Source: Alkaliphilus pronyensis (lineage in GTDB: Bacteria; Bacillota; Clostridia; Peptostreptococcales; Natronincolaceae). From it: a stretch of DNA of 64,000 nucleotides. A program made the position numbers and the translations under genes. A model generated the notes under the pieces. That model was not told the DNA's origin. It was given only the letters and a program-made list of their open reading frames with translations, and did no database searches. The DNA is taken from assembly GCF_009017275.1 (NCBI RefSeq), contig NZ_WBZC01000013.1, positions 1 through 64,000 of the forward strand, in the 5' to 3' direction. Shown here piece after piece: positions 864-63,600 of this stretch; position 1 is the first letter of the stretch; the number at the start of each line of letters is the position of its first letter.

Positions 864-1466
864 CTATTCTACTTGGTTATTGGCATCTCCTCCACCAATC
901 CAAGGGTCTTCTCCCTTTTCCCATGCTTCAATATACTCATCTATAGTCATAACCTTAGAAAAAATACTTAAATCCTTTAGTCCATTTAAGTGCATTTCTT
1001 CAGTTTTAGAAGCACAACCATCACTTAAGGTTATTACCTTGTAGGCATTAGCTAATGCATCTGTAGCAGAGCTTCTAACACATACATTTGTCCATACTCC
1101 TGTAACTACAACAGTGTCGATGTTTTCTTCCCTTAAATATAGGTCTAAATCTGTATGGGCAAAGGCACTGTGTCTTCTCTTAGGAACGATATACTCGTCT
1201 CCTTCTGGGTAAAGCTCTGGAATAAAGTCTGAACCCCAAGTACCCTTAACTGCATGTAGAGGTCTTACTCTAAAGTCTGCATCATTCTTTCTGTGGGCCT
1301 CTTGAATGTGAACTAAATGAATGTCATCATCCTTACGATTTCTTACCCATTTAAAAAGCTTCTGAAGATCTGGAATTATTGTTTCACCACCTGGACATCT
1401 TAGTGGTGCCTTTACTCCTACAAAATCATTTAGCATATCTATTACTAATATAGCGTGTCTTGGCAT
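864..1466 (-). CDS. Isochorismatase-family cysteine hydrolase (amidase)
   Basis: A 200-residue member of the isochorismatase/nicotinamidase superfamily. The catalytic triad is visible: Asp10 in VIDMLNDF, Lys96 in VPKRRHSAF and Cys129 in GVWTNVCVRSSA. Relatives include nicotinamidase, N-carbamoylsarcosine amidase and ureidoacrylate amidase, so hydrolysis of an amide or ureido group is expected. An upstream in-frame TTG at 1484 would add six residues, but those codons contain the AAAGGGAGAG ribosome site, so ATG at 1466 is chosen. It lies 66 bases downstream of the hydantoinase-like gene. Cyclic amidohydrolase followed by carbamoyl amidase is a standard ring-opening then deureidation pair. The substrate cannot be read from the sequence; a ureido-imidazole acid fits the neighbours. 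Confidence 0.9.
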   Translation of the reverse strand: MPRHAILVIDMLNDFVGVKAPLRCPGGETIIPDLQKLFKWVRNRKDDDIHLVHIQEAHRKNDADFRVRPLHAVKGTWGSDFIPELYPEGDEYIVPKRRHSAFAHTDLDLYLREENIDTVVVTGVWTNVCVRSSATDALANAYKVITLSDGCASKTEEMHLNGLKDLSIFSKVMTIDEYIEAWEKGEDPWIGGGDANNQVE

Positions 1467-1532
1467 AATCTCTCTCCCTTTCAAAGTTAGTTTTGTCTAG
1501 ATTGGTATAAATACCAATCTAGACAATTATAA

Positions 1533-2948
1533 TTAGTATTTAATAACTCTCTCAAGCTTTTGTATTCTTTGTCTCTTAACAAATTGACCATAGCCTGGTT
1601 TACCAACAATACCTTCTTTATCATCATATACAACAGTTCCACGAACAACAGTTTTAACTGGCTTACCTTTTAGTTTAATACCGTGTAATGGGTTGTATTT
1701 AGCCATAGAGTAGGTTTCTTTTTGATCTATAGTCCATTCTCTTTCTAAATCTATAATTGTAAAGTCAGCATCTGACCCTATCATTATAGCACCTTTTTTG
1801 GGGTATAAGCCATACATTTTAGCAGCATTTGTACTTAAAACCTCTACTAATCTGCTTAATGTAAGTCTTCCCTTGTTGTAGCCTTCACTAACTACTATAG
1901 GAACTAATGTCTCTACTCCTGGTATTCCTGGAAAGGCTGACCAAATGTTCATTCCTGGACCTTCTTTTTCTGTTGCAATTTCGTATGGGGCATGGTCTGT
2001 AGCCATAAAATCTACGCTTCCATTTTGTAGACCTTCCCAAAGCTCTTCGTTATCCTTCTTTGTTCTTAGTGGTGGTGCAATCTTTGCAAATTGCTTATGC
2101 TCTGTCATTGCATCTTGGTAATTAAGCATTAAATAATGTGGGCATGTTTCCGAAGTAACACTTGAACCTCTTTTCTTAGCCTCTCCAATCAGCTTTGCAC
2201 CAACACCAGCACTCATATGCACTATGTGAAGTCTTGCTCCTGTAGCTTCTGCAAAGTTTATACCTAGCTCAATTGCTGATCTTTCAGCTTCAACGCATCT
2301 AGCTTCTGCCCAAGCTGGACCATCTGTTCTACCTTCTTTTTCAAACTTTTTAACGAAATAGTCGCACATAGCAAAGTTTTCAGCATGAATTCCTACTGGT
2401 ACACCTATTTCTGCAACCCATCTGAAGGCCTCAAGCATTTCAGGGTCAGTTACTCTCTCGTAGGTTGGTACTGAAGGTGTCATATAAACCTTGAAGGCGC
2501 AAACCCCATAATCTGCTTGTTCCTTAACAATATGCTTTTTACCAGCTCTTATATCTTCACCGGTTACTCCACCCCACATAGCATAGTCAATAACAGCTTG
2601 ATCCTTAATAGCATTAAGCTTATGCTGTAGCTCCTCTACACCCCTTACTGATGGCTTAGAGCAGCATGGCATATCCATTATCATGGTTAATCCACCAGCT
2701 GCAGCTGATGATGATCCAGTTAAAAATGTTTCTCTGTGGGTAAAGCCTGGGTCCATAAAATGGGTGTGGGAGTCGAAGCAGCCTGGTAATGTTAAGTGTC
2801 CCTCTGCATCAATCTCGCTATTGTACTCTATACCCTCTAGATCAGTCACAAATCCTGCTATTTTTTCATCCTTTACTAAAATATGAGTTAAAACTGTTTC
2901 GTCACCATGGGGTATTTTTGCATTTTTAACAACAACATCGTATTTCAT
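1533..2948 (-). CDS. Hydantoinase/allantoinase-type cyclic amidohydrolase
   Basis: A 471-residue amidohydrolase of the dihydropyrimidinase/allantoinase group. The binuclear metal site is readable: His61 and His63 in DSHTHFMDPG, the likely carboxylated Lys153 in CAFKVYM, His188 in GIHAEN, the HIVHMSAG motif near 241-248, and Asp318 in MATDHAPY. The TIM-barrel domain is flanked by the usual small beta domain, and length is normal for the family. Such enzymes open cyclic amides (hydantoin, dihydrouracil, allantoin). It follows fhs by 22 bases and has an AAGGAGG site. With formiminotransferase, fhs, an amidase and a PucR regulator nearby, a purine-derived substrate such as xanthine is plausible. 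Allantoin or hydantoin remain real alternatives because family members cannot be told apart by eye. Confidence 0.9.
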   Translation of the reverse strand: MKYDVVVKNAKIPHGDETVLTHILVKDEKIAGFVTDLEGIEYNSEIDAEGHLTLPGCFDSHTHFMDPGFTHRETFLTGSSSAAAGGLTMIMDMPCCSKPSVRGVEELQHKLNAIKDQAVIDYAMWGGVTGEDIRAGKKHIVKEQADYGVCAFKVYMTPSVPTYERVTDPEMLEAFRWVAEIGVPVGIHAENFAMCDYFVKKFEKEGRTDGPAWAEARCVEAERSAIELGINFAEATGARLHIVHMSAGVGAKLIGEAKKRGSSVTSETCPHYLMLNYQDAMTEHKQFAKIAPPLRTKKDNEELWEGLQNGSVDFMATDHAPYEIATEKEGPGMNIWSAFPGIPGVETLVPIVVSEGYNKGRLTLSRLVEVLSTNAAKMYGLYPKKGAIMIGSDADFTIIDLEREWTIDQKETYSMAKYNPLHGIKLKGKPVKTVVRGTVVYDDKEGIVGKPGYGQFVKRQRIQKLERVIKY

Positions 2949-2970
2949 TAAAAAATCCTCCTTTTTATTT

Positions 2971-4641
2971 TTAGAATAAGCCTAAAATCTCTCCATCTTC
3001 TGTAATATCCATATTATTTGCTGCTGGTATCTTAGGTAAGCCAGGCATTGTCATTATGTCTCCAGTTAAAGCAACTAAAAACTTAGCACCCGCTGAAACT
3101 CTAATTTCTCTTACTGTTACCTTAAAGCCCTTTGGTTTTGCTAAAAGTGTTGGGTCATCTGATAAGGAATATTGTGTTTTAGCCATGCAAATTGGCATTT
3201 TGTCTAATCCTAGTTTTTCAATGTTTTTAATTTGCTTTTCGCAGCCCTTAGTAAACTCAACTCCATCAGCGCCATAAACCTCTTTTGCTATTTTTTCAAT
3301 TTTTTCAGGTATAGATAGCTCAACATCATATAGTGGTTTGAAGCCAGTAGGTTTCTTTTCTATAGTTTCTACAACCTTTTGTGCCATTTCTTTACCACCT
3401 TCACCACCATTTGCCCAAACATCTGACAATACTACTTCAGCACCTAAATCCTTACATTTATCAAAAATGTATTGTAGCTCTGCTTCTGTATCTGTTGGGA
3501 ATTTGTTAATTGCAACAACCACTGGAACTCCAAATTTTTGAACATTCTCGATATGCTTCTCTAAATTACCAAAGCCAACCTCTAATGCCTTTAGGTTTTC
3601 AGAGTTCAGTTCAGCCTTAGGTACTCCACCATGATTCTTTAATGCTCTGGCTGTGGCAACTATTACTGCACAATCTGGCTTTAACTCAGCAAAGCGACAC
3701 TTTATGTCAAAGAACTTTTCTGCTCCTAGATCAGCACCAAAGCCAGCCTCTGTTACTACGTAATCTGCTAATTTAAGGGCTAACTTTGTTGCCATAACAC
3801 TGTTGCAGCCATGGGCTATGTTTGCAAAGGGGCCACCATGAATGAAGGCTGCTGTGTTTTCTAATGTTTGCACTAAGTTAGGCTTAATTGCATCCTTCAG
3901 CAGTAAGGTTAATGCACCAGTTGCGTTTAAATCCTTTGCTCTAACAGGTTCATTATTGGAGTTATAAGCTACTATCATGTCACCTATTCTTGCCTTTAAG
4001 TCCTCCATGCTGGTTGCTAAACAAAGTATTGCCATTATCTCAGAAGCTACTGTAATATCAAAGCCATCCTGTCTTGGTACTCCATCACCCCTGTTACCTA
4101 GACCTACAACAGTATTTCTAAGGGCTCTGTCGTTCATGTCTAAAACTCTTCTCCACACTATTCTTCTAGTATCTATATCTAAGCTATTACCTTGATGAAT
4201 GTGATTATCCAGAAGTGCAGCCATTAAATTATGGGCAGTTGTAATAGCATGAATATCTCCTGTGAAGTGTAGGTTAATATCCTCCATTGGTACCACCTGA
4301 GAGTAGCCACCACCTGCTGCTCCTCCCTTTACTCCAAAGCATGGACCAAGTGATGGTTCTCTTAGGGCTGTAATCGTTTTCTTGCCAATTTTGTTTAGCC
4401 CCATGCTTAATCCAATATTAGTTGTTGTCTTTCCTTCTCCTGCTGGTGTTGGATTAATAGCAGTAACTAAAACTAACTTTCCATCAGGCTTGTTTTCTAA
4501 TCTTTTGAATACGTCTAAGGAAACCTTTGCTTTGTACTTACCATAAAGCTCAAGCTCATCCTCCAGTATTCCAAGATTTTGGGCTATGTCTGTAATTGGT
4601 TTCATCTTCGCCTCTTGGGCTATTTGAACATCTGTCTTCAT
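2971..4641 (-). CDS. fhs: Formate-tetrahydrofolate ligase
   Basis: A 556-residue, full-length formyl-THF synthetase. It has the P-loop [14 protein letters not shown] near residues 65-78, followed by the family-typical [20 protein letters not shown] stretch, and NPTPAGEG is intact. The enzyme interconverts formate, ATP and THF with 10-formyl-THF. In fermenters it can run backwards and make ATP from formyl-THF. It sits directly between ftcD and the cyclic amidohydrolase, so here it most likely serves catabolic C1 recovery rather than biosynthesis. The ATG at 4641 has a CGGAGGG ribosome site. The 63-base gap to ftcD holds a decayed copy of a dispersed repeat (4664-4699). Confidence 0.97.
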
Positions 4642-4663
4642 TTGTTATATCCCTCCGTAGTAT

Positions 4664-4699
4664 TTTATCTCAGCGGTGTTACTATGCTCCCACTTTTTA
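4664..4699 (+). repeat. Partial copy of the ~120-nt dispersed structured element
   Basis: The stretch TTTATCTCAGCGGTGTTACT and the following CTCCCACTTTTT match the first ~36 bases of the full copies at 43686 and 63601. The match then stops. It lies in the ftcD-fhs gap inside an operon, so it looks like a remnant or a partial insertion. Confidence 0.65.
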
Positions 4700-4704
4700 T
4701 CCCT

Positions 4705-5610
4705 TTACTTCATTAAATGTGTTTCAAGTATTTGCTCTTTTCTAAAGCCTTCTAATCCTAGATAATATTCTAAGGAGTTAATTATATAATCTAGCTTAAC
4801 AGGCCCAACTATCTCTGATCCAGTAACAGCAACTCCATACCTAGCTGCCTCCTGCTTAACAAAGTTAAATGCCCTGTATAAAGGTGTAGCTCCACAATCA
4901 AACATGTTCATTGATACTACAACGCCTTCTCTTTCTGGAAACTTAATGCCTACTGCTCTAACAGTTGAAAATCCACCACTAGGTCCTCTTACTCCCTTAG
5001 CAATGGCTTTAGCAATGCTTAAGTCGTCGGTTGCTAAAAAGATATTATAGGCTGTCAAACCTTCTAAATCTGCACTTACAATAGTAGCCCCAGCTGTTGG
5101 ATGCAGGGCTGCTGGTCCAACATCAGGCTTTCTTTCATCAGTATGGGCAACCTCCTTTAATCCCTCATATTGACCTTTTCTAATAAAAGAAAGTGCTTTT
5201 CTATCTTCATTTCTTGCATTTTGTCCTGAGAAGAATACTGGAACCTCAAATCTTTTATATATTTCTTCTCCTATTTCTTCTGCTAGATTAACACATTCTT
5301 CAATTGTAATGTTTTTAAATGGAAATATAGGTATTGTGTCTTGAGAACCTATTCTTGGATGAGTTCCTTCTTGCTCCTCCATGTTAATTAATTCATAGCT
5401 TTTTTTAGCCATATTTAGTAGTGCTTCCTTAAGGGGGGCTGGCTCACCAATAACAGTAACAACTGTTCTGTTGAAGTCATGCTCTGGCTCATAGCTAACA
5501 AGACTAACACCTTCAACGTTTTTTAATGGTTCAACTATTGCTTCAATTACTTCTTTTCTTCTTCCATCACTAAAATTTGGTACAGCTAAAACATACTGCT
5601 TTTCTGTCAT
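4705..5610 (-). CDS. ftcD: Glutamate/glycine formimidoyltransferase (FtcD N-domain type)
   Basis: A 301-residue stand-alone formiminotransferase. The opening VPNFSDGR and the active-site region GTHPRIGSQDTIPIFPF (His84) are characteristic of the formiminotransferase half of FTCD. The cyclodeaminase half is absent and is encoded separately at 10187-10825. The reaction moves a formimino group from formiminoglutamate or formiminoglycine to THF. No hutH, hutU or hutI is present in the window, so histidine breakdown is not supported by context. In purine-fermenting clostridia the donor is formiminoglycine. The start ATG at 5610 has an AAGGAGG site. It belongs to the operon that begins with the chemoreceptor gene. 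Confidence 0.93.
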   Translation of the reverse strand: MTEKQYVLAVPNFSDGRRKEVIEAIVEPLKNVEGVSLVSYEPEHDFNRTVVTVIGEPAPLKEALLNMAKKSYELINMEEQEGTHPRIGSQDTIPIFPFKNITIEECVNLAEEIGEEIYKRFEVPVFFSGQNARNEDRKALSFIRKGQYEGLKEVAHTDERKPDVGPAALHPTAGATIVSADLEGLTAYNIFLATDDLSIAKAIAKGVRGPSGGFSTVRAVGIKFPEREGVVVSMNMFDCGATPLYRAFNFVKQEAARYGVAVTGSEIVGPVKLDYIINSLEYYLGLEGFRKEQILETHLMK

Positions 5611-10186: not shown

Positions 10187-10825
10187 TTAAAGCTTTGAAT
10201 AAACTAATTCAATTACTTCATCCTTAAGCTTTGTGCCTTCCTTTAAAATCATCTCACATTCACTATTTATCCCTGAAACATATTCTTCATTCTTTAATCC
10301 CTGTAAATTAATTCTAACATTAAACAACGCACCCTCTAATCCGCCATAGGCCATAAGAGCTGCAACTCCAATGTCTGTAATAGCATTAACATTTCCAGAT
10401 TCAGCAAAAACCTTTTGACACTGAAGCACCTTTAAGCATTCCTTAGCTGCTGATAAAGGCACCTCTAAAGCTCCGATAGTTGCCTTTTCTATAGCTTCTT
10501 TTCTTGCTTTTTTATCTTCATCTGTTTCCTTTGGTAGCTTAAAGGCTGCCATTACTTCGTTAAATGCCTTTGTATCTTCATCAATTAGCTTATTAAGCTG
10601 TGCTTTTAGCTCTATAGCAAAATTGTGCTTTTTTTGTATTACATTTTGCACCTCTGAGTCTAATTCATTATAGGCTTTTCTACCAATAGTTAAATTTCCT
10701 ACCATAGCTGTTAATGCTGCTCCTAAGCTACCAGCCAATGCAGATACACTACCCCCACCTGGTGTTGGCTCTTTACTTTCAACCACTTCTATAAATTCTT
10801 TAACAGTTTTGTCGACTAACAACAT
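10187..10825 (-). CDS. fchA: Formimidoyl-tetrahydrofolate cyclodeaminase
   Basis: A 212-residue cyclodeaminase. The N-terminal signature PTPGGGSVSALAGSLGAAL (residues 21-39) is diagnostic of the FchA/FTCD C-terminal family, and the rest is helical as expected. The enzyme turns 5-formimino-THF into 5,10-methenyl-THF and releases ammonia, which is the step directly after the formiminotransferase encoded at 4705-5610. In vertebrates the two are one protein; here they are separate genes flanking the regulator region. AAAGGGG precedes the ATG by nine to ten bases. It has its own terminator and probably its own promoter, so it may be under the neighbouring PucR-type regulator as a single-gene unit. 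Confidence 0.95.
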   Translation of the reverse strand: MLLVDKTVKEFIEVVESKEPTPGGGSVSALAGSLGAALTAMVGNLTIGRKAYNELDSEVQNVIQKKHNFAIELKAQLNKLIDEDTKAFNEVMAAFKLPKETDEDKKARKEAIEKATIGALEVPLSAAKECLKVLQCQKVFAESGNVNAITDIGVAALMAYGGLEGALFNVRINLQGLKNEEYVSGINSECEMILKEGTKLKDEVIELVYSKL

Positions 10826-15039: not shown

Positions 15040-15356
15040 TTAAAATACCTTCCCCGTTGTTTATTTCTATTTCTTTATTAGCTTTATATCGGAGGCTTTA
15101 CGACATTCCCCATTCTTAAGGAGGAGATATGTATCGCCACCCATGAAAGCAAGTGGAACTAAGCTTACTTTATTTTACAGCATAGTTTTAAAGAAGTCAC
15201 TAAAAAATTATACCTCATATTAGGGTTAGTAATTATGCAATTTCCTATGCTTTTGGTAAAAATAGTATTAAATATGATTGGCTAGAATTTTTTGGGGTAT
15301 ATATTTAAATATTTGGTATATATCTATAATTAGTACAAACTATAAGGAGGAATTCG
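15040..15356. other. Intergenic region rluF / PLP-GNAT gene
   Basis: This 317-base gap between divergent genes holds a diverged relative of the dispersed structured element (15082-15180) and otherwise AT-rich sequence. A promoter for the plus-strand gene is expected near 15290-15340, but no convincing -35/-10 pair was fixed. Confidence 0.4.
15082..15180 (+). repeat. Diverged relative of the ~120-nt structured element
   Basis: The order ATC..GGAGGC TTAC.ACA TTCCCCATTCTTAAG GAGGAGA ..CGCCA follows the order of the full copies at 43686 and 63601, with roughly 60 percent agreement by eye and without the 3' palindrome. It is treated as an old copy. Confidence 0.4.
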
Positions 15357-16730
15357 ATGAAGAATACTATTATCAACATGGTGGGAAAAACCCCCTTGGT
15401 GAGAGCAGAAAACCTAGAAAAGGAATTAGGTATATCGAAAATATATCTTAAGTTAGAGGGTAATAATCCATCAGGTCAACGTTTCGACCGATTAGCACAT
15501 TTATTAATAAAGGATGCAGTATCTATAAATAAAAGAACTATTTGCATGGGTACACCAGGTCCATTGTCCAACTCCCTTGCTTTAATATCACAATTTTATG
15601 ATGTGGAATGTGTTTTTGCATTCCCTACAAGCAGTAGGGCATTAAAAAACAAACTGTTTAATAAGGAGAACATTAAACTTGTTGAATGTGGAAAAACACA
15701 AGCTGAATGTGTAAACTATTGCTCTGAAATGAGTGAAAAACACGGATGGTATAATGCCACCTTAGGAATGGAGAATAATATTTTAAATATGACTGCATTA
15801 TCCTTCATTTCCCAAGAGCTACACAACCAGGTAAAGGAAGAAATTGATACTGTGTTTTCACTTATGAGTTACGGTTTTTCAGTGTCTGGACTACACTTAG
15901 GCTTTAGGCAGCTTTGGATTAATAACCATATTAAGAAACTACCTAAGCTGTACAATTGTACTATAAATGAAGGAAATGTAATTTATGAATCCTACAAAAA
16001 AAATTCACTAAAGATCAAGCCGTTGCCTAATGAAAAAATAAAAGTTACTAGATATAACAGACACTTACTCAATTTTAATAGCTCTATAGCTCAAGATGCA
16101 TTAGATTCAATATATGATGCTAACGGAACAATTACTGGTATTACCGAAGAGGAACTATTAAAGTACACAGGTAAGTTTAAAAAGATAGAAAATATTAAGT
16201 TTAGTACAGAAAATGGCTATGCTATTGCAGGATTTATGAAGGAAGTAGAAAAAGGTAATATTTCTAATGGTAATCATGTAATTCTGCTGAATGACGGAAG
16301 AGTTGATTTAGACGTCAGAAGGGTTACTAGAAATGAAGTTGATATGTCTATAGACGAGATTGTAAGCAATATAGATGAATGGCTAATGGAGTATACAGAT
16401 CCTCTTTATGAGATTAAAGAAGCCTTAGAGCAAGCATTTGAAACAGGCTTCGTGTTAATGTCCTTTTATAACAACCAATTGTCTGGTATATCTGTTATTG
16501 TACATACTGGCTTTGAGAATTTTATACCAACCTATCACCTAGGCTATATAGCTACAAAACGCACTATTAAGGGTCGTGGAATAGCTACACAGCTTCTAAG
16601 AAAGGCTATTGAGCTTTCTGGTGGAAATATCTCATTACATGTTGAAAAAGACAACAATAGAGCTATAAAGCTTTATGAAAAAATGGGCTTTAAAAAATCC
16701 TATCTAAGAATGATTCATCAATCCCGATAA
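15357..16730 (+). CDS. PLP-fold (threonine synthase-like) pseudoenzyme fused to a GNAT acetyltransferase
   Basis: A 457-residue two-domain protein. Residues 1-330 follow the fold-type II PLP family (cysteine/threonine synthase-like): MVGKTPLVRAENLEKELG at the start, then LKLEGNNPSGQRFDR. At the position of the Schiff-base lysine (usual pattern NPSGSFKDR) the sequence has Phe43, and the glycine-rich phosphate loops are also changed (GTPGPLSNSLAL). Residues ~340-457 are a GNAT domain with HLGYIATKRTIKGRGIATQL and LYEKMGFKKS. So the acetyltransferase looks active while the PLP domain looks non-catalytic and may bind an amino-acid ligand or the acetyl acceptor. The start ATG has AAGGAGG. It is monocistronic with a terminator at 16741. 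Confidence 0.85.
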   Translation: MKNTIINMVGKTPLVRAENLEKELGISKIYLKLEGNNPSGQRFDRLAHLLIKDAVSINKRTICMGTPGPLSNSLALISQFYDVECVFAFPTSSRALKNKLFNKENIKLVECGKTQAECVNYCSEMSEKHGWYNATLGMENNILNMTALSFISQELHNQVKEEIDTVFSLMSYGFSVSGLHLGFRQLWINNHIKKLPKLYNCTINEGNVIYESYKKNSLKIKPLPNEKIKVTRYNRHLLNFNSSIAQDALDSIYDANGTITGITEEELLKYTGKFKKIENIKFSTENGYAIAGFMKEVEKGNISNGNHVILLNDGRVDLDVRRVTRNEVDMSIDEIVSNIDEWLMEYTDPLYEIKEALEQAFETGFVLMSFYNNQLSGISVIVHTGFENFIPTYHLGYIATKRTIKGRGIATQLLRKAIELSGGNISLHVEKDNNRAIKLYEKMGFKKSYLRMIHQSR

Positions 16731-19178: not shown

Positions 19179-20249
19179 ATGAACTATTTAACTAAGGACT
19201 TACTTACCAGCTTAATCAAAGAAAACTACAATGAAAAATGTGTATCTATATTTATTCCAACAGCACAGGTGGGTAAGGAAGCATCGGTTGGTAGTATTAG
19301 TCTTAAAAATCTATTGGATATAGCAAAAATAGAGCTACAAAAGGATGGCTTTTCCTCCAAAAAAGCTCATCAGTTTTTAAGATCTGCCTACGACTTAGTT
19401 GATAATTCTATGTTTTGGAGCTATCAAAAGGAAGGTCTATGGATTTTTATAACCTCCGAGGAAATAGATTATTATAGATTACCTATAGGCTTTAAGCAAC
19501 TAGTTATTCTATCTAAAGGACTTTATATACAACCATTGCTTAAATTTTTTGTAGCAGATACGGATTTTTATATATTAGCACTAAGTCAACAAAAAATTAG
19601 ATTAATACATTGTACAAAGTATAGCTCCAAGGAAATCAATAATGATATAAATAACAAATGGGAATCTGTATACCAGAGTAATGGCATAGATTGCGAGGAT
19701 AGCAAGAAGGGTATTTGTAAATTTTTACAGCATGTTAGCAGCAGCTTACTTAAATATATTGACGTAAAGGATGCTCCTATAATATTAGCTGGTGTAGACT
19801 ATATACTATCAATATTCAAGGAGCTACAACCCCAAATCAATATACATAAAAAGGTTATATTAGGAAACTCAGATGATTTAAGTGTAGATGAGCTTCATGG
19901 TAAGGGTTTGGAACTACTTGAAGCATATTTTAATAAGCCTATCCATAAAGCCCAAGAAGAATATAAACATAAAAGTGAATCAAAACAGGTATGTAACTGT
20001 ATTGAAAAGGCTATTTCCTCTGCTTATAATGGTAGAATTAAAACACTACTTGTTACTGCTGGAGTACGGCAATGGGGTACATACAAACCCTATTCAAATG
20101 ATATTATTTTATATGAGGATAGAAAGCCTAATTCGATAGATCTAATTAATTTTGCTGCAACCCATACTTTTTTAAACGGTGGTAAGGTATATGAAGTAAA
20201 TCATGGTAAAGCACTGGATAGCTACTGCTACGGTATCTTAAAGTATTAA
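19179..20249 (+). CDS. Bacterial eRF1-like (baeRF) family protein
   Basis: A 356-residue soluble protein recognisable by its start (SIFIPTAQVGKEASVGSISL, then LKNLLDIAKIEL) and by a C-terminal third with IEKAISSAYNGRIKTLLVTAG followed by a Gly-poor loop. This matches the bacterial/archaeal eRF1-related group, whose members resemble the translation release-factor/pelota fold. Their role is not settled; ribosome-associated or RNA-quality roles have been proposed. The ribosome site AGAGGAGG precedes the ATG. It converges on a flavodoxin-type gene. No partner gene is obvious. Confidence 0.78.
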   Translation: MNYLTKDLLTSLIKENYNEKCVSIFIPTAQVGKEASVGSISLKNLLDIAKIELQKDGFSSKKAHQFLRSAYDLVDNSMFWSYQKEGLWIFITSEEIDYYRLPIGFKQLVILSKGLYIQPLLKFFVADTDFYILALSQQKIRLIHCTKYSSKEINNDINNKWESVYQSNGIDCEDSKKGICKFLQHVSSSLLKYIDVKDAPIILAGVDYILSIFKELQPQINIHKKVILGNSDDLSVDELHGKGLELLEAYFNKPIHKAQEEYKHKSESKQVCNCIEKAISSAYNGRIKTLLVTAGVRQWGTYKPYSNDIILYEDRKPNSIDLINFAATHTFLNGGKVYEVNHGKALDSYCYGILKY

Positions 20250-52189: not shown

Positions 52190-53362
52190 TTATAGATTAA
52201 TTGCCTCTTGCTCTAATTTGCAATTATTCTCAAGCATATAATTAATTACTGTGCCATATTGGCTATCGGCTAATCTTCGAAGTCTATTTTTATCGTTTTC
52301 TGTTAACCTTTTAGTATACTTGGCATATGTTTTAATTGTTTCTATATCCATTTTAAAAGGGATGAAGTCAATACCTGTTTGATTTTTTAAATGTTCTAAT
52401 ATATAGAATCCTCCAGCATCAATATCTCCAAAATGATAAAATACAGTTTTGGGATTCTGATGATGTATTTTTTTAATAAACTCCCGTCTAACACTATTAT
52501 GATAGCCACCCAAATATATAGCCAACATATCTTCATTAGAAAAACTATGAAAGCTTGTTAAGTTTTCAATAGTTATGACTGCTTTTCCAATAACATCAAC
52601 TCTATCTATATCTGTTAGCATTGCTGATGAAATTCCAATATCACTGCTTAGTCTTGTTAAGTCAATTAACTGCCCATTAATAGTTATATAGCCTGCTCCT
52701 TTTAAATTTACATATGTTGGATTCTTAACAATATTTAGATTCCCTAATACTTGATCTCGATCTGGGTAGTTACCAAACTCAAATATAAGATTTACTGCTT
52801 TAGGGGCTACCCTTTCAAAAACCTTTGAGTCTTTGAAAACTCTTACTGAAAAATCCCTAGCAAAGGTTTCAGTCTGAACCTTCATTAATTCATCTACTGC
52901 TAATAAAAGGTTTTTAAACTCTTTTAGGTCATTGCTGAAAAACTGTATCGATTTATTTTGATGTATTCTTTCATGCTGTACTAAGCAATATTCCTTTAAA
53001 ACTTCATTTTTTTCTTTGTACTCATCCAGTAGTCTTATTACGGCACTATTAATATCTTTCTTGGGTACCCTGTCAACATAGATGTATATAGCTTCTAGAT
53101 TATCTGTATTTAATACAACATTATTATAAACATGGGCGGTGTTTGATTGTGCAATAATAAAGGATTTTCTCACTAAAACATCAATGGCTTCGTTTACCCC
53201 TTGGAACACCTCATAATTGGAGTGGTCATTATACTTAGAAAACAAGGCTGAAATCTTTACACTAAATTTTTGATTAACTTTGTTTTCCCCTATAAAGCTT
53301 TTACTTTTCTCGTATTTATCTATTAATTTATTTATAATTATTCTCTCATACTTACCTATCAT
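52190..53362 (-). CDS. jetD: Wadjet system nuclease subunit JetD
   Basis: A 390-residue protein with a C-terminal topoisomerase-VI-like (Toprim) domain. VFYHFGDIDAGGFYILEHL carries the metal-binding Asp-x-Asp, and IYLGGYHNSVRREFI precedes it. The N-terminal half is the DNA-binding part of JetD/MksG. JetD cleaves closed circular plasmid DNA after the JetABC loop extruder brings it in. It starts inside the stop of jetC (ATGA overlap at 53359-53362) and is the last gene of the operon. The catalytic acidic residues look intact. Confidence 0.93.
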   Translation of the reverse strand: MIGKYERIIINKLIDKYEKSKSFIGENKVNQKFSVKISALFSKYNDHSNYEVFQGVNEAIDVLVRKSFIIAQSNTAHVYNNVVLNTDNLEAIYIYVDRVPKKDINSAVIRLLDEYKEKNEVLKEYCLVQHERIHQNKSIQFFSNDLKEFKNLLLAVDELMKVQTETFARDFSVRVFKDSKVFERVAPKAVNLIFEFGNYPDRDQVLGNLNIVKNPTYVNLKGAGYITINGQLIDLTRLSSDIGISSAMLTDIDRVDVIGKAVITIENLTSFHSFSNEDMLAIYLGGYHNSVRREFIKKIHHQNPKTVFYHFGDIDAGGFYILEHLKNQTGIDFIPFKMDIETIKTYAKYTKRLTENDKNRLRRLADSQYGTVINYMLENNCKLEQEAINL

Positions 53363-56300
53363 AGATCATACTCCTCAATTATTGATGTGCTTCCTTCCCT
53401 CATTGCCATAAGAATAGTATCTACCTTTTCACCAATTACTTCTATCTTTGATGGAGGTGTAGCAAGTATAATTTGAAAGCTTTGACTATTAAAAAAGTCC
53501 ATCATTGAAGTTATTCTGTTATCGTCCATCTTATCGAAGGCTTCATCCAGCATAATAATTCTAATGGTATCCCCTAGTCTATAAAGCTGAACAAAAGAAG
53601 CAGCTATAGCAACATAGTATGGTGTCTGGGTTTCACCGCCGCTCTTCTCACCGTAGATTTTAGAAAAACGCTGCAAAGAACCATCTCTCTTTTCAACCAC
53701 AATATCGTAGTCCAAATAGCTACGATAATCTGTGTACTCAGCAAGTACTTTTTCTCCTTTGTCATCATAGGCTGTTAATTTAGCAAATAAATCCTCCATC
53801 TCTTCTTTATATTCCTCTTCAAATGAGTTTGCCCAAAGGGTGAAGCCTCCCATATTATCATTAGAGGTAATCATCTTATAAATACTTTCTTTACTCTTGT
53901 TGTAGGTTATTTCAAACCTATAACTATCCTCTCCGTAATATATATCTTTAAGTGCAGAATTAAGATATTTAAACTCTAGTCTTGCATTTTCTATGTTTTC
54001 CTTTAACCTTGCTAAAAAAGATTCCTTGAACTCTAGCTGGCAGTTTTCTTTAGCTTTTTTCAAATCCTCTTCATATTTAATTATATCAGATGCAACCAGC
54101 TTATGATGTTCCTTAAGGTATTCACCCATTTGCTCAGTTCCAGTTCCGAGGTCACAATCATATTTACTGCAAAAACTGCTTTGAAGCTTAATAAGGTCAG
54201 TACGCAAATCATTTTTCTTATTTTCAAGCCCTACTTTAAGTGGTGAAAAGTTTTGAACTATTGTTGCAGGAGATTTTCTTTTTACTTGTTCATTATATTT
54301 ATTAATTCCTAGCATAGTTATTTCTGTGTCTATATTACAAAGTTCATTGAAGTTCTTTTCTAAAACAGAAATAGTATTATTTATTTGAGTAATATCATTA
54401 TTGTTGTATTCTAACTCTTTATCTAGTTCTGTTATTTTTCTAATTGATAAAGTATGTTCTTTATCCTTCTCTTTAACAGCTTTTATACACTCTTCTATCT
54501 GAATTTGTATCTGTATATAGCTTGGATTGTCTTCCGCCTTCTTAAGTTCTATAGCTTCCTTAGTAATCAGTTCTTTTAATTCCTTAAGTCTATTTGGAGC
54601 ATCCATGTTTTCTTCTAAGGTTTCAATTTTACATTGGTCTATACTTTCAATTATTTCATGGCTAATTTGACCCTTTTCTTCTGCAATTTTTATATCCTCA
54701 TTTAATGCTATTAATTCTGCTTCTTTGTTTTTAAGCTGTATTTCATAGGCCTGTGCTCCAATATAAGGAGTTCGATAAACAGCCTCATGAATTTTACGTA
54801 CAGCATAATTTTGATAAAGCATACAATCTGATGTTATTGCAATTTTATAATCCTTTAGCTTCTCTATTTCATCACAGCGAATTACTCTATTAAGCAGGTA
54901 TATTGCATATGCTTTTGCATACCGGTTTTCACTTTTTAGGATATAAGCAAGAGAATCCTTGTCAGCTATAGCATTAGTATCAAGTTTGCCAGTATTTACA
55001 AGGCCAACTGTATGTACTTCCTTTTTTATTTTGTTGTATACTGCTAAAGCAATTCTATAATACTTGGGCTCAACAATAATATAAAATCTTTGACTATTCA
55101 AATAACCTTCCACTGCATTTTGCCATTTACTATCTGTAACCTCCAAAAGGTCAGAGAATATTCTAACATCACTACGTATACCTTGGTTTAAAAACTCTTT
55201 TTCAATAGCTATTTTCAGCTTCATAGTATTTTCAGGATACGGTAATTTTTTATTTTTTAGATTCTTTATCTCCTTTTCTAATTTAAGCTTTTGTGTTTTA
55301 TACTGTTCTAATAAATCCTTAATTCTAACATAATCAAAGCTATACTCTTTATCTAATCTTCGCAATTCCTTATCTAGCTTGTATATTACTTCAATCTTGA
55401 TTTCCGTTTCTACATCTTGTGACTCTAGCTTTATAACCTCATCCTTGCTCATAATGAAAATTTCATACTTATTCAATAAGCTCAATGCATCAACTACTTT
55501 TCTTAGCATCTTTTGAAGTTTACTTGAATTCTTATCTGCATTTTCTTTATCTTTTTGTAGGATTTGTATTCGATGTTTTGTATCTTTGATAAGCTGTGTT
55601 GTTTCGTTTTGTCCAAGTGCAATCTGTAGGTTAGTGAGTCTTTCTCTCTCATTTTCAAGGCTAATTTTTAAAGACCCTTCAACTTTTTGCTGATTTATTA
55701 GCTTTTGCTCAAGGAAATGATTTTTTTTCTTCAGTTCCTCATGGGTTTGCTTTTTAGCTTCTATTTCTGATTTTTTAATTAAAATATCATTAGTTTTTAT
55801 CTCACGATCCTTGGCGAGAATATCATCATTCTTTAATAAAATTGTCTCAAGCTCTTCTATTTTCTCCTTTGTAATATCCATTAAGTCCTCAAGTTCTTTT
55901 AGAGCAGCAATGTTATTTCTAAGGGTTGCTACTTCTATATCCTTTTCTGACAAAATGAACTTATTTATAAAATCCTTTACGTTATCCATAGGTTTGAATG
56001 CCAGTGATTTTGGTATCATATCAAAGAATCGATCTTCTAAATTACCTAATCTTTGTCCAAACCTTGCTTTGGCTTCTGAAAGCTGAGATATTAGCTGTAT
56101 TTTTTTATCATTTCGTCTAAACTCCTCTGTGGTAGAAGGTCTAGCCCCTGTTAAGAAGGATAGGTCCTCTAATTTGCATTCTTCTCTAAACCATTTTGTA
56201 GTAAGCTTACTCTCCTCATCGGGAGAATCAATTTTAACACCAAGTGTAAAGTACTTAGCTGTTTTTTCTTCGAAGAACTCCAGTGCAACATACGTGATTA

Positions 56301-56565
56301 CACTACCTCTTCTAAGATAGGTGCTTTCTTCACTTCCTGTCTTGCAACGGACATAGCCCTTTAAATTCCTATTGCTCTTCTCATTGGCAGCTGTATTAAA
56401 CTTTCTAGTATTTGTGGTTAACACCAATTGGATTGCATCTAAAATTGTTGATTTTCCTGTTGTGTTTTCACCACTAATCAAAAACGAGCCGTTGACTTTG
56501 ATGGTTTCATTAACAAAATAATGCCAATTAATTAATCTAATCCTGCACAGCTTCTTCATCATCAT
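53359..56565 (-). CDS. jetC: Wadjet system SMC-like ATPase JetC
   Basis: A ~1068-residue SMC/MukB-like ATPase. Walker A GENTTGKSTILDAIQ is near residue 32. Two very long coiled coils (~220-430 and ~640-880) flank a hinge-like region near YLNSQRFYIIVEPKYYRIAL. The C-terminal signature EKSGGETQTPYYVAIAASF and Walker B IRIIMLDEAFDKMDDNRI are complete. It provides the motor of the plasmid-recognising condensin. ATG at 56565 with GGAGG eight bases upstream is preferred to ATG at 56580. It overlaps jetB by about 30 bases. Confidence 0.94.
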   Translation of the reverse strand: MMMKKLCRIRLINWHYFVNETIKVNGSFLISGENTTGKSTILDAIQLVLTTNTRKFNTAANEKSNRNLKGYVRCKTGSEESTYLRRGSVITYVALEFFEEKTAKYFTLGVKIDSPDEESKLTTKWFREECKLEDLSFLTGARPSTTEEFRRNDKKIQLISQLSEAKARFGQRLGNLEDRFFDMIPKSLAFKPMDNVKDFINKFILSEKDIEVATLRNNIAALKELEDLMDITKEKIEELETILLKNDDILAKDREIKTNDILIKKSEIEAKKQTHEELKKKNHFLEQKLINQQKVEGSLKISLENERERLTNLQIALGQNETTQLIKDTKHRIQILQKDKENADKNSSKLQKMLRKVVDALSLLNKYEIFIMSKDEVIKLESQDVETEIKIEVIYKLDKELRRLDKEYSFDYVRIKDLLEQYKTQKLKLEKEIKNLKNKKLPYPENTMKLKIAIEKEFLNQGIRSDVRIFSDLLEVTDSKWQNAVEGYLNSQRFYIIVEPKYYRIALAVYNKIKKEVHTVGLVNTGKLDTNAIADKDSLAYILKSENRYAKAYAIYLLNRVIRCDEIEKLKDYKIAITSDCMLYQNYAVRKIHEAVYRTPYIGAQAYEIQLKNKEAELIALNEDIKIAEEKGQISHEIIESIDQCKIETLEENMDAPNRLKELKELITKEAIELKKAEDNPSYIQIQIQIEECIKAVKEKDKEHTLSIRKITELDKELEYNNNDITQINNTISVLEKNFNELCNIDTEITMLGINKYNEQVKRKSPATIVQNFSPLKVGLENKKNDLRTDLIKLQSSFCSKYDCDLGTGTEQMGEYLKEHHKLVASDIIKYEEDLKKAKENCQLEFKESFLARLKENIENARLEFKYLNSALKDIYYGEDSYRFEITYNKSKESIYKMITSNDNMGGFTLWANSFEEEYKEEMEDLFAKLTAYDDKGEKVLAEYTDYRSYLDYDIVVEKRDGSLQRFSKIYGEKSGGETQTPYYVAIAASFVQLYRLGDTIRIIMLDEAFDKMDDNRITSMMDFFNSQSFQIILATPPSKIEVIGEKVDTILMAMREGSTSIIEEYDL

Positions 56566-57160
56566 TCTGCTCGCCTCCATTCAAATACTTATTTAGTTTT
56601 TCATTTACTGCATCATACATTTTAGTTAAGTTATCATTTGGCACAGCAAATAGTACCGATGGATAAATTTTTATTCGTGCATCCGACATAGTAATATCAC
56701 TGTCCATGTTAGAGATGATGTTATATCTCTTAAATATTCTAATTGCTTCTCTGTATACTGTTTTATCTAGGTTAGATTTTGATTCGATCTTAAGCATATT
56801 ATATTTTTCATGTATTTCATCAGATAAAACAACTACTTCTTCATTGAGGCTTAATTCCTTACGTTTTTCAATATACAAAAGTCTCAAAATCAGTAAGACA
56901 ATACTTTCTACTTTTCTAAGTCTTAGCCTGCCTGTTCCCTCTACATTGGTGAGAGCCACAACCCCTTGGATTTCATTAATCTCTATTTTATAGCCCAACA
57001 AGTCAAAGTATTCAATAAAAAGGTTTTTATTTTGAAGGATAAAAATATAGTCATTTCTTGTATCTTCTTTTTTCTTTATGATAAAGCAATAATTGAGAAG
57101 TTTGTTTGCGGCAATTCTAAATTTCTCTTTTTGTACTACACTTTCATTTAATATTTCCAT
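56537..57160 (-). CDS. jetB: Wadjet system subunit JetB (MukE-like)
   Basis: A 207-residue DUF4194-type protein, the MukE-like kite subunit of Wadjet complexes. Winged-helix regions (KFRIAANKLLNYCFIIKKKE, and later REAIRIFKRYNIISNMDSDI) and an acidic tail rich in Asp and Glu are visible. It bridges JetA and JetC. It begins five bases past the jetA stop and overlaps jetC. AGAGGTG is upstream of the ATG. Confidence 0.9.
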   Translation of the reverse strand: MEILNESVVQKEKFRIAANKLLNYCFIIKKKEDTRNDYIFILQNKNLFIEYFDLLGYKIEINEIQGVVALTNVEGTGRLRLRKVESIVLLILRLLYIEKRKELSLNEEVVVLSDEIHEKYNMLKIESKSNLDKTVYREAIRIFKRYNIISNMDSDITMSDARIKIYPSVLFAVPNDNLTKMYDAVNEKLNKYLNGGEQNDDEEAVQD

Positions 57161-57165
57161 GATTT

Positions 57166-58581
57166 TTACTTACACCTCTCTATTATGAAGTCAGAAAATC
57201 GAAAACTATTTATGGCTATAATTTTATTGGTCTTAGTGGTCTTATATTTTGATTTTTTATCCTTACCGTATAGGCTTATAAAAATAACTCTAATTAAATC
57301 TCGCTTGCTTTCTAAGGGTAAGGTTGAAGCAAGTACAGCTTTTTTGTCTGTTAGTAGCTGATTAACATAATTATTAATGTTTTTTCTAGAAAACCTGTTC
57401 TTGTTCTTTTCTTGCAAAGCAAGCTTTCTTAGTTCCCGCTCTTCTTCAGAAATACCTAAGGTAGCACTCAACTCTTCTGGTAAAGACATCTTCTTGGAAA
57501 TAGGAACAACGTATAGGGAATCGTTATCGATAAATCCTTGGGGAAACATATTAAAAACCTCTAATAGGTCTTCACTCACATCATCATTCAAATTTAATGT
57601 ATCATCATTATTAAACTCATCTGCAAGATATGCCAGTATCTTTGAAATCTTGCCTTCTGCATTATTGGTGTTTGTCAGTAAAAACTTTGCTCTTGCAACT
57701 GCACTTCCAATATATTTGGCGTTTTTATTATCTATCTCAGATATAATATCATCATAGTTTCTAAAGGCAGATATAATACTTAATATTTTTCTTCTCAATG
57801 AATCTTCAGCATCTATTCTGTTTTCCACTTCCTCTATTTCCATGTAACCTAAAATCGCACGCTCATAAATATGTTCATCATTTAAAATGTTATATAGATT
57901 TTCAATTATAGAGGTTCTGAAGTGGGATATATTGTCGCTGGTTTTGATTCGGTGATATGCTTTAGATCCAATATCCCTATGATATAGGAAGAAATCCTGT
58001 ACAATTTCTCCAGCTGTCTTTTCGTTAGTTATTGCATCAATATATTTTTTTATATTTGTATTTAGTTTTTTTAGTCCTACTATAAGCTCTTCGGTATTTT
58101 CTATAACACGTTTTATAATATATTCGTATGGTTTTACATAGGCCTCTTTATTTAAAAGGGTAGCATGAATCTGTGATACTAGACTCTGATACTCCATTTC
58201 CTCATTTTTAATTATTTTGTTGAAGGATTCAATCATTGTAGCGGTATAATCATATAGATTTACTTTTACCCTGTAGTCATTAGATACTTCATATGTAAGC
58301 CAACCACTATCCTTTAATCTACGTAAAATGGCATTAGCCTTTGTCCTTGAATCTTTTGCAACCTCTTGGTCTTCATCAAATACCATATCTTCACTTGATT
58401 GATCATCAAAATAGTGCTCTAGCTCTGCTAAAATAACCACTTTATCTACGCCAAATGACAGTTCTGTTTTGTAGGTATTATATATGAGTCTTATGCAATC
58501 TATATATGTAACTTTATACTTGCTAGTTAGTGGTTTGAAAAAATCATCTGAGACTATATTAAATAAATTAATTATAATCAC
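57166..58581 (-). CDS. jetA: Wadjet system kleisin-like subunit JetA (type III-like)
   Basis: A 471-residue helical protein beginning NLFNIVSDDFFKPLTSKYKV, which fits the DUF5716-type JetA of type III Wadjet systems rather than the DUF3375 type. Winged-helix segments (GWLTYEVSNDYRVKVNLYDY) flank a long helical middle. It is the kleisin (MukF-like) that ties JetB to JetC. The start is odd. GTG at 58581 is part of AGAGGTG itself, whereas an ATT codon eight bases after AGAGG would give the family-like start M-N-L-F. So the real start may be non-standard. Confidence 0.9.
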   Translation of the reverse strand: MIIINLFNIVSDDFFKPLTSKYKVTYIDCIRLIYNTYKTELSFGVDKVVILAELEHYFDDQSSEDMVFDEDQEVAKDSRTKANAILRRLKDSGWLTYEVSNDYRVKVNLYDYTATMIESFNKIIKNEEMEYQSLVSQIHATLLNKEAYVKPYEYIIKRVIENTEELIVGLKKLNTNIKKYIDAITNEKTAGEIVQDFFLYHRDIGSKAYHRIKTSDNISHFRTSIIENLYNILNDEHIYERAILGYMEIEEVENRIDAEDSLRRKILSIISAFRNYDDIISEIDNKNAKYIGSAVARAKFLLTNTNNAEGKISKILAYLADEFNNDDTLNLNDDVSEDLLEVFNMFPQGFIDNDSLYVVPISKKMSLPEELSATLGISEEERELRKLALQEKNKNRFSRKNINNYVNQLLTDKKAVLASTLPLESKRDLIRVIFISLYGKDKKSKYKTTKTNKIIAINSFRFSDFIIERCK

Positions 58582-63268: not shown

Positions 63269-63339
63269 CATTATTAATTAAGTAGAAGTTTAATTGTCTA
63301 CTAATATAACACCTCCCCATCCTCGTGAGTAATAATCAG

Positions 63340-63505
63340 CGCTTTTCCCATTGGCAGGTCTCCTGACTAAGGATTACAAAGCATTACACCTTCCCATACT
63401 TCAGTACAGTGGTATCTGTAAGCTTCTATCCATTACAGTGGCGGGACCGTGTCGGATTTTCACCGTTCTTCCCTTTTAAACAATCTTAAAATAAGATTAT
63501 ACCAA
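63340..63505 (-). promoter_or_regulatory. Cobalamin (B12) riboswitch
   Basis: Read on the minus strand, the conserved blocks occur in the right order. They are AAAAGGGAAGAACGGTGAAA with AATCCGAC, CGGTCCCGCCACTGTAA (the B12 box) at 63435-63456, and AGTCAGGAGACCTGCC at 63368-63353. A hairpin terminator follows downstream. It should switch off the AspT-like/sucCD/yitT-like operon when adenosylcobalamin is plentiful. Confidence 0.93.
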
Positions 63506-63600
63506 TAGTAATTATTAAATTTTAAAATTGATGATTATTTGTAGAGTAAAAACTTCTTCCCTCTTTTTTATTTTGTACTTAGATCAAAGCAGTCTATAGG

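Follow-up and report, generated by a model that had tools for sequence, protein, structure and literature searches.

What does a threonine-synthase-like domain do in a protein whose second half is an acetyltransferase, once the lysine of its PLP chemistry is gone? This question is raised by a gene in a stretch of 64,000 nucleotides from Alkaliphilus pronyensis (contig NZ_WBZC01000013.1, positions 1 to 64,000), hereafter called the window. The gene (15357..16730, + strand), supported by Pfam matches and orthologues, encodes 457 amino acids, with its ATG at 15357 and its stop codon ending at 16730, and a Shine-Dalgarno-like AAGGAGG can be read in the sequence 6 nt 5' of the ATG (15344..15350, +). 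The original prediction regarded the design as one that it did not recognise as described; indeed, a search limited to one open-access literature library returned no published description of such a fusion.

Domain architecture and the state of the GNAT half

The N-terminal part, approximately residues 1-318 (15357..16310, +), is a threonine-synthase-like PALP pseudo-domain of the fold-type II PLP class, as judged from Pfam, an AlphaFold2 model and PDB matches. PF00291 covers residues 8-311 with an E-value of 3.7e-31 and 109 bits against a cut-off of 35, which places the domain in the PALP family. Its best NCBIfam model is NF004996/PRK06381, named 'threonine synthase', at 186.9 bits and thus under the cut-off of 266, a value reached in none of 297 genomes of the order; the runner-up threonine synthase model scores 91.6 bits. 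The AlphaFold2 model of the fusion, built from 40 family members, has a mean pLDDT of 88.5 and a pTM of 0.80, and threonine synthases of the PDB superpose on its residues 1-315 with Z ~30 and an rmsd of 2.7-3.0 Å, the PDB matches listed for the model falling nearly all on the PALP half and barely covering the GNAT half.

The C-terminal part, approximately residues 321-457 (16317..16727, +), is a GNAT N-acetyltransferase domain by Pfam and by its invariant residues, with PF00583 (Acetyltransf_1) matching residues 343-445 at an E-value of 2.6e-13 and 50.7 bits against 20.7, within the GNAT superfamily. The prediction that this half is intact holds at the level of sequence: Y440, G406, G408, N433 and A436 are invariant in the family alignment. 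Y440, which the alignment places in an LYEK motif (codon 16674..16676, +), occupies the usual position of the general-acid tyrosine of GNATs and would have the catalytic role that this implies. Besides this tyrosine, the window protein has the acetyl-CoA loop (Q/R-x-x-G-x-G/A) as K405-G-R-G-I-A, where K405 is a conservative replacement of R, the residue found in the lysine-bearing fusion L209 described below. With these motifs intact, acetyl transfer from acetyl-CoA by the window GNAT would be expected.

Loss of the Schiff-base lysine and of the phosphate loop

In an alignment with threonine synthases, the segment EGNNPSGQRFDR of the window protein places F43 (codon 15483..15485, +) in the column of the K of NPTGSFKDR, just as predicted, so that the x-K-D-R motif of a PALP enzyme is here without its Schiff-base lysine. 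Is this a property of one protein or of a family? Among 39 Lys-less fusion proteins, drawn from 60 related genomes, the GTDB contig set and further genomes, none has K in this column, which holds E in 11, I in 10, Y in 6, F in 4, N and H in 3 each, and A and L in 1 each. The lysine is kept in 13/13 Lys-bearing PRK06381 relatives, in 7/7 threonine synthases and in a single fusion, L209. A single mutant or a sequencing error is ruled out by the 39 sequences. On the evidence of these alignments the loss of the lysine is conserved and family-wide, and the Phe itself is not: the proposed check for a conserved Phe gave 4/39, and what the orthologues conserve is the absence of Lys. The two following residues, D44 and R45, are invariant across all 39. 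No member of the Lys-less clade has kept the usual lysine, L209 lying outside it, and no other lysine has become newly conserved that could take over PLP. The PALP half has only one nearly invariant lysine, K32, which the Lys-bearing enzymes have too and which is therefore no replacement for the lost one; a compensating lysine elsewhere in the domain was thus ruled out.

The phosphate loop, also predicted to be altered, has changed from the GNAGN or GNGTT of Lys-bearing relatives to SYGFS in the window protein and its clade, as part of a degenerate LMSYGFSVSG at residues 169-178 (15861..15890, +). The window protein hence lacks a Gly/Asn-rich loop. Among the Lys-less fusions, a partial one (GNGSS) survives in some archaeal members alone: two of these retain G-N-G (QTGNGSSISG in L211 and L212), as the clostridial fusions do not, and the others read SNGSS (L205) and FDGSS (L215). 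Since it can form no internal aldimine in the usual position and its phosphate clamp is lost, the PALP domain should carry out no PLP chemistry, and threonine-synthase activity (O-phosphohomoserine to threonine) is predicted to be absent owing to the loss of the Schiff-base lysine.

Split, fused and lysine-less stages in the archaea

Intermediates between a Lys-bearing PALP enzyme and the fusion were found in MAGs of Thermoplasmatota. In L068, three separate neighbouring genes of a split operon encode a PALP with its lysine, a DUF1611 protein and a GNAT. L209 is a full-length PALP-GNAT fusion in an open frame of 507 aa that keeps both the lysine (NPTGTQKDR) and a loop reading GNGST, and four further archaeal fusions (L205, L211, L212, L215) are Lys-less (HREDR) with part of the phosphate loop kept. 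A more divergent Lys-less fusion (L244, NPSGHKCDR) has an Orr-like gene adjoining it. The archaeal placing does not depend on binning only, because a gene for the large subunit of an archaeal primase lies on the contig of L215.

The 29 Lys-less fusions sampled for the PALP tree make up a single clade (support 100/100); as drawn, its outermost members are the archaeal fusions, and L209 and L068 group together (90/67) outside this clade. In the GNAT tree, the GNAT of L209 joins those of the fusions (97/96) and is separate from the standalone GNATs of Bacteroidota. Fusion first, loss of the lysine second and loss of the phosphate loop third would be the simplest sequence of events; the data support it well without proving it, because the PALP tree was rooted at its midpoint and L209 is one MAG sequence. 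For two genomes of the same genus (G006 and G016), dN/dS is 0.043 for the PALP half and 0.032 for the GNAT half, the only pair for which we quote a ratio since dS is saturated for more distant pairs, nearest relatives included. By this measure of sequence change both halves are under purifying selection, and the ratio of 0.043 indicates that the PALP half is not drifting.

Two further observations concern copy number. In one clostridial family each genome carries two fusion paralogues (G024, G035, G046 and G055; L008-L011 and L031-L034). In Saliniplasma (L171, G693:C32:6718-7602, and L068) a PRK06381 gene occurs together with a second threonine-synthase-like gene of 144.5 bits, so that PRK06381 may there be mislabelled as 'threonine synthase'.

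Gene context and proposed function

Does the neighbourhood reveal what the fusion acts on? In the Clostridia it does not: across 17 regions, the window included, we found no conserved neighbourhood, and shared neighbours occur only between close relatives. The flanks in the window comprise an RluF-type pseudouridine synthase, an SDR, an HD-GYP-type protein and a baeRF-type putative ribosome hibernation factor (19179-20249, +; AOC03_06830 family, below cut-off). Rfam gave no upstream RNA regulator near the fusion gene, its sole match being a distant cobalamin riboswitch (63336-63521, -, 110 bits), and PADLOC gave no match for the gene as a member of a defence system. Elsewhere the window holds a complete Wadjet operon, JetA-JetB-JetC-JetD (52190-58581, -; JetA1 564 bits, JetB1 240, JetC1 1084, JetD1 390), and, from translations read by eye, isochorismatase-like, dihydropyrimidinase/allantoinase-like, formate-THF ligase, glutamate formiminotransferase-like and cyclodeaminase-like ORFs (864-5610 and 10187-10825, -), probably a cluster for purine or allantoin-type degradation.

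An adjacent Orr-like gene, absent from the window and the other clostridial loci, is present in archaeal and Bacteroidota relatives. The archaeal Lys-less fusions are followed by an Orr-like amino-acid racemase, either directly or after an M20 deacylase of the ArgE/DapE type; the racemase adjoins the fusion in G694, G707, G758, G792 and G727, with the M20 gene between or next to them in G694 and G792. In a sample of 194 Thermoplasmatota genomes, from which L244 was omitted as it had been found through its Orr gene, an Orr-like gene occurs in 5/5 genomes with a Lys-less fusion versus 9/189 others (Fisher 9e-7, uncorrected for phylogeny). Among the relatives the association is weak (18/18 versus 30/42, p 0.012, likewise uncorrected). 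No Orr-like gene was found in the Lys-bearing G775 and G693. As a strict rule, the idea that Orr replaced the PALP step fails: four archaeal genomes have a Lys-bearing PALP and an Orr-like gene together, and three fusion-bearing Bacillota genomes (G106, G145 and G893) have no Orr match.

Among Bacteroidota loci retrieved by GNAT similarity alone, the standalone GNATs resembling that of the fusion have an Orr-like gene downstream in 34/39, in 23 of them at no more than 150 bp. Some of these operons comprise an SSF symporter, the GNAT, an M20 amidohydrolase, Alr and the Orr-like gene (in Flavobacterium, L089: GNAT, M20, Alr, Orr-like). In the archaea, a standalone GNAT stands immediately 5' of an Orr-like gene in three cases (L246, L250, L251), DUF1611 adjoins an Orr-like gene in two (L241, L242), and the partner of Lys-bearing PRK06381 genes is DUF1611, whose match to DgcN stays under the cut-off of that model. 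From the fusion and the GNAT/Orr-like and PRK06381/DUF1611 pairings it follows that genes for an amino-acid N-acetyltransferase and a PLP enzyme recur in several combinations. After PRK06381-DUF1611 pairs of Thermoplasmatota we also noted a family of 455-476 aa proteins without a Pfam match (L204 3408-4772, L222 6120-7538, L223 1453-2880). In the window genome DUF1611 is absent, and its own Orr lies on another contig in an ornithine-fermentation cluster of OrtB, OraE, Or-4 and Orr (L253 186-6689, G000:C2); nothing links the fusion to it.

We favour, with about even confidence, the reading that the fusion is an amino-acid N-acetyltransferase in which a PLP-dead PALP domain is kept as a scaffold and perhaps as a ligand-binding or regulatory module. 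The ancestor of the N-terminal domain would be a PALP enzyme of the PRK06381 lineage that still had its lysine and was joined to a GNAT. Within the Lys-less clade, the Schiff-base lysine would have disappeared (archaeal members having E instead of K) before the phosphate loop did, and PLP chemistry should have ended. For the GNAT we predict that a free amino acid, or a close derivative of one, is acetylated on its amino group, in a pathway that elsewhere may use an Orr-like PLP racemase and M20 deacylases. This acceptor is a prediction from the racemase and deacylase context. GNAT acceptor specificity is not readable from sequence; the archaeal and Bacteroidota context supports amino-acid metabolism over regulatory protein acetylation. 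Although PLP-dead, the PALP half is retained by purifying selection; it would serve as a folded scaffold and might also bind a ligand for regulation or present a substrate, and its retention suggests a role in structure, oligomerisation or ligand binding. The data establish the fusion, the family-wide loss of the lysine, the single clade, the predicted fold and the operon linkage in archaea and Bacteroidota; we infer the acceptor, the role of the PALP half as scaffold or regulator, and a common function for the clostridial members. In the plainest case, the GNAT would acetylate an amino acid and the dead PALP domain would be no more than its scaffold. Of the original proposal, the PLP-fold pseudoenzyme next to an intact GNAT is borne out by conservation, trees and the confident fold model; its control of acetylation by amino-acid sensing or substrate presentation is plausible and unproven.

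Possible, if on the doubtful side, is that the PALP domain is a sensor which binds an amino acid, another metabolite or a phospho-compound without PLP and allosterically switches the GNAT. The purifying selection and the confident fold would suit such a role, as would the near invariance of G173, D44-R45, K32 and N37 despite the loss of the lysine; much of the remaining conservation, however, is found within the first 45 residues and would fit a purely structural role, and the lysine position and phosphate loop differ between subclades, so that no common ligand signature is visible. It is improbable that PLP or a PLP-like cofactor is still bound without an internal aldimine, or through the adjacent K42, for a new PLP chemistry. 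K42, which is K in 15/39 fusions and R in 21, does adjoin the lost position in the GHK-x-DR subclade, and some archaeal members keep the G-N-G of the loop, but the members with K42 have lost G-N-G, most of the family, the window's clade included, has R, L or I at 42, and on geometric grounds a shift by one residue in helix 43-56 should turn the side chain elsewhere. Slightly less credible still is a protein acetyltransferase in which the dead PALP pairs with an active homologous PLP enzyme and presents it to the GNAT: the fold is kept and fold-type II enzymes are commonly dimers, but the archaeal operon partners, a racemase and a deacylase, belong to metabolism, and in Bacteroidota the closest GNATs do without any PALP domain. 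Least of all do we believe in a decaying, functionless remnant on a working GNAT, since, for all its missing catalytic residues, the protein has low dN in both halves, a confident fold and a long ORF intact across some 40 genomes and retained in several phyla.

Beyond the scaffold reading that we prefer, it is conceivable, though unlikely, that these proteins are undescribed PLP-fold pseudoenzyme regulators, in which a PLP-less threonine-synthase fold binds an amino acid and gates or presents substrate to the GNAT of a racemisation/acetylation pathway, with split, fused-active and fused-dead stages extant. Kinases provide well-known examples of pseudoenzyme domains; a PLP fold that lacks its lysine throughout a family, is fused to a second enzyme and has natural intermediates by which the steps can be ordered offers a clean case for asking what purpose a fold serves after its enzymatic chemistry has been lost. 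The findings also point to an uncharacterised module of amino-acid acetylation, racemisation and deacetylation common to Thermoplasmatota and Bacteroidota, and give reason to test whether PRK06381 deserves its 'threonine synthase' label.

How does the fusion compare with known systems? The nearest family of its N-terminal domain is the archaeal PALP lineage PRK06381/NF004996, with the same fold and a shared N-terminal G-x-TPL-x-RA...LK-x-EG-x-NP-x-G-x-x-x-DR; unlike it, the window protein has neither the Schiff-base lysine nor the GNGTT loop, is fused to a GNAT and scores below the cut-off. The threonine synthases 2zsj, 6cgq and 2c2b have the fold of residues 1-315 at only 17-21% identity, and the window PALP has lost their catalytic lysine and phosphate loop. 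The standalone GNATs of Bacteroidota, in operons of the form GNAT - (M20 - Alr) - Orr-like, are about 35-42% identical to the GNAT half, with homology extending into the segment that precedes the Pfam domain, and adjoin the same racemase family as the archaeal fusions, but have no PALP domain. DgcN/DUF1611, by its NCBIfam name the N-acetyltransferase of D-glutamate catabolism, is alike in that an amino-acid N-acetyltransferase gene is coupled in archaea to a PALP or Orr-like racemase gene; its Pfam families differ from GNAT, and the archaeal genes score 142-149 bits against the DgcN cut-off of 480. Finally, a relative of the ornithine racemase Orr (NF040742) adjoins the archaeal Lys-less fusions, and since the archaeal and Bacteroidota genes reach about 270-432 bits, below the cut-off of 480, their substrate may not be ornithine.
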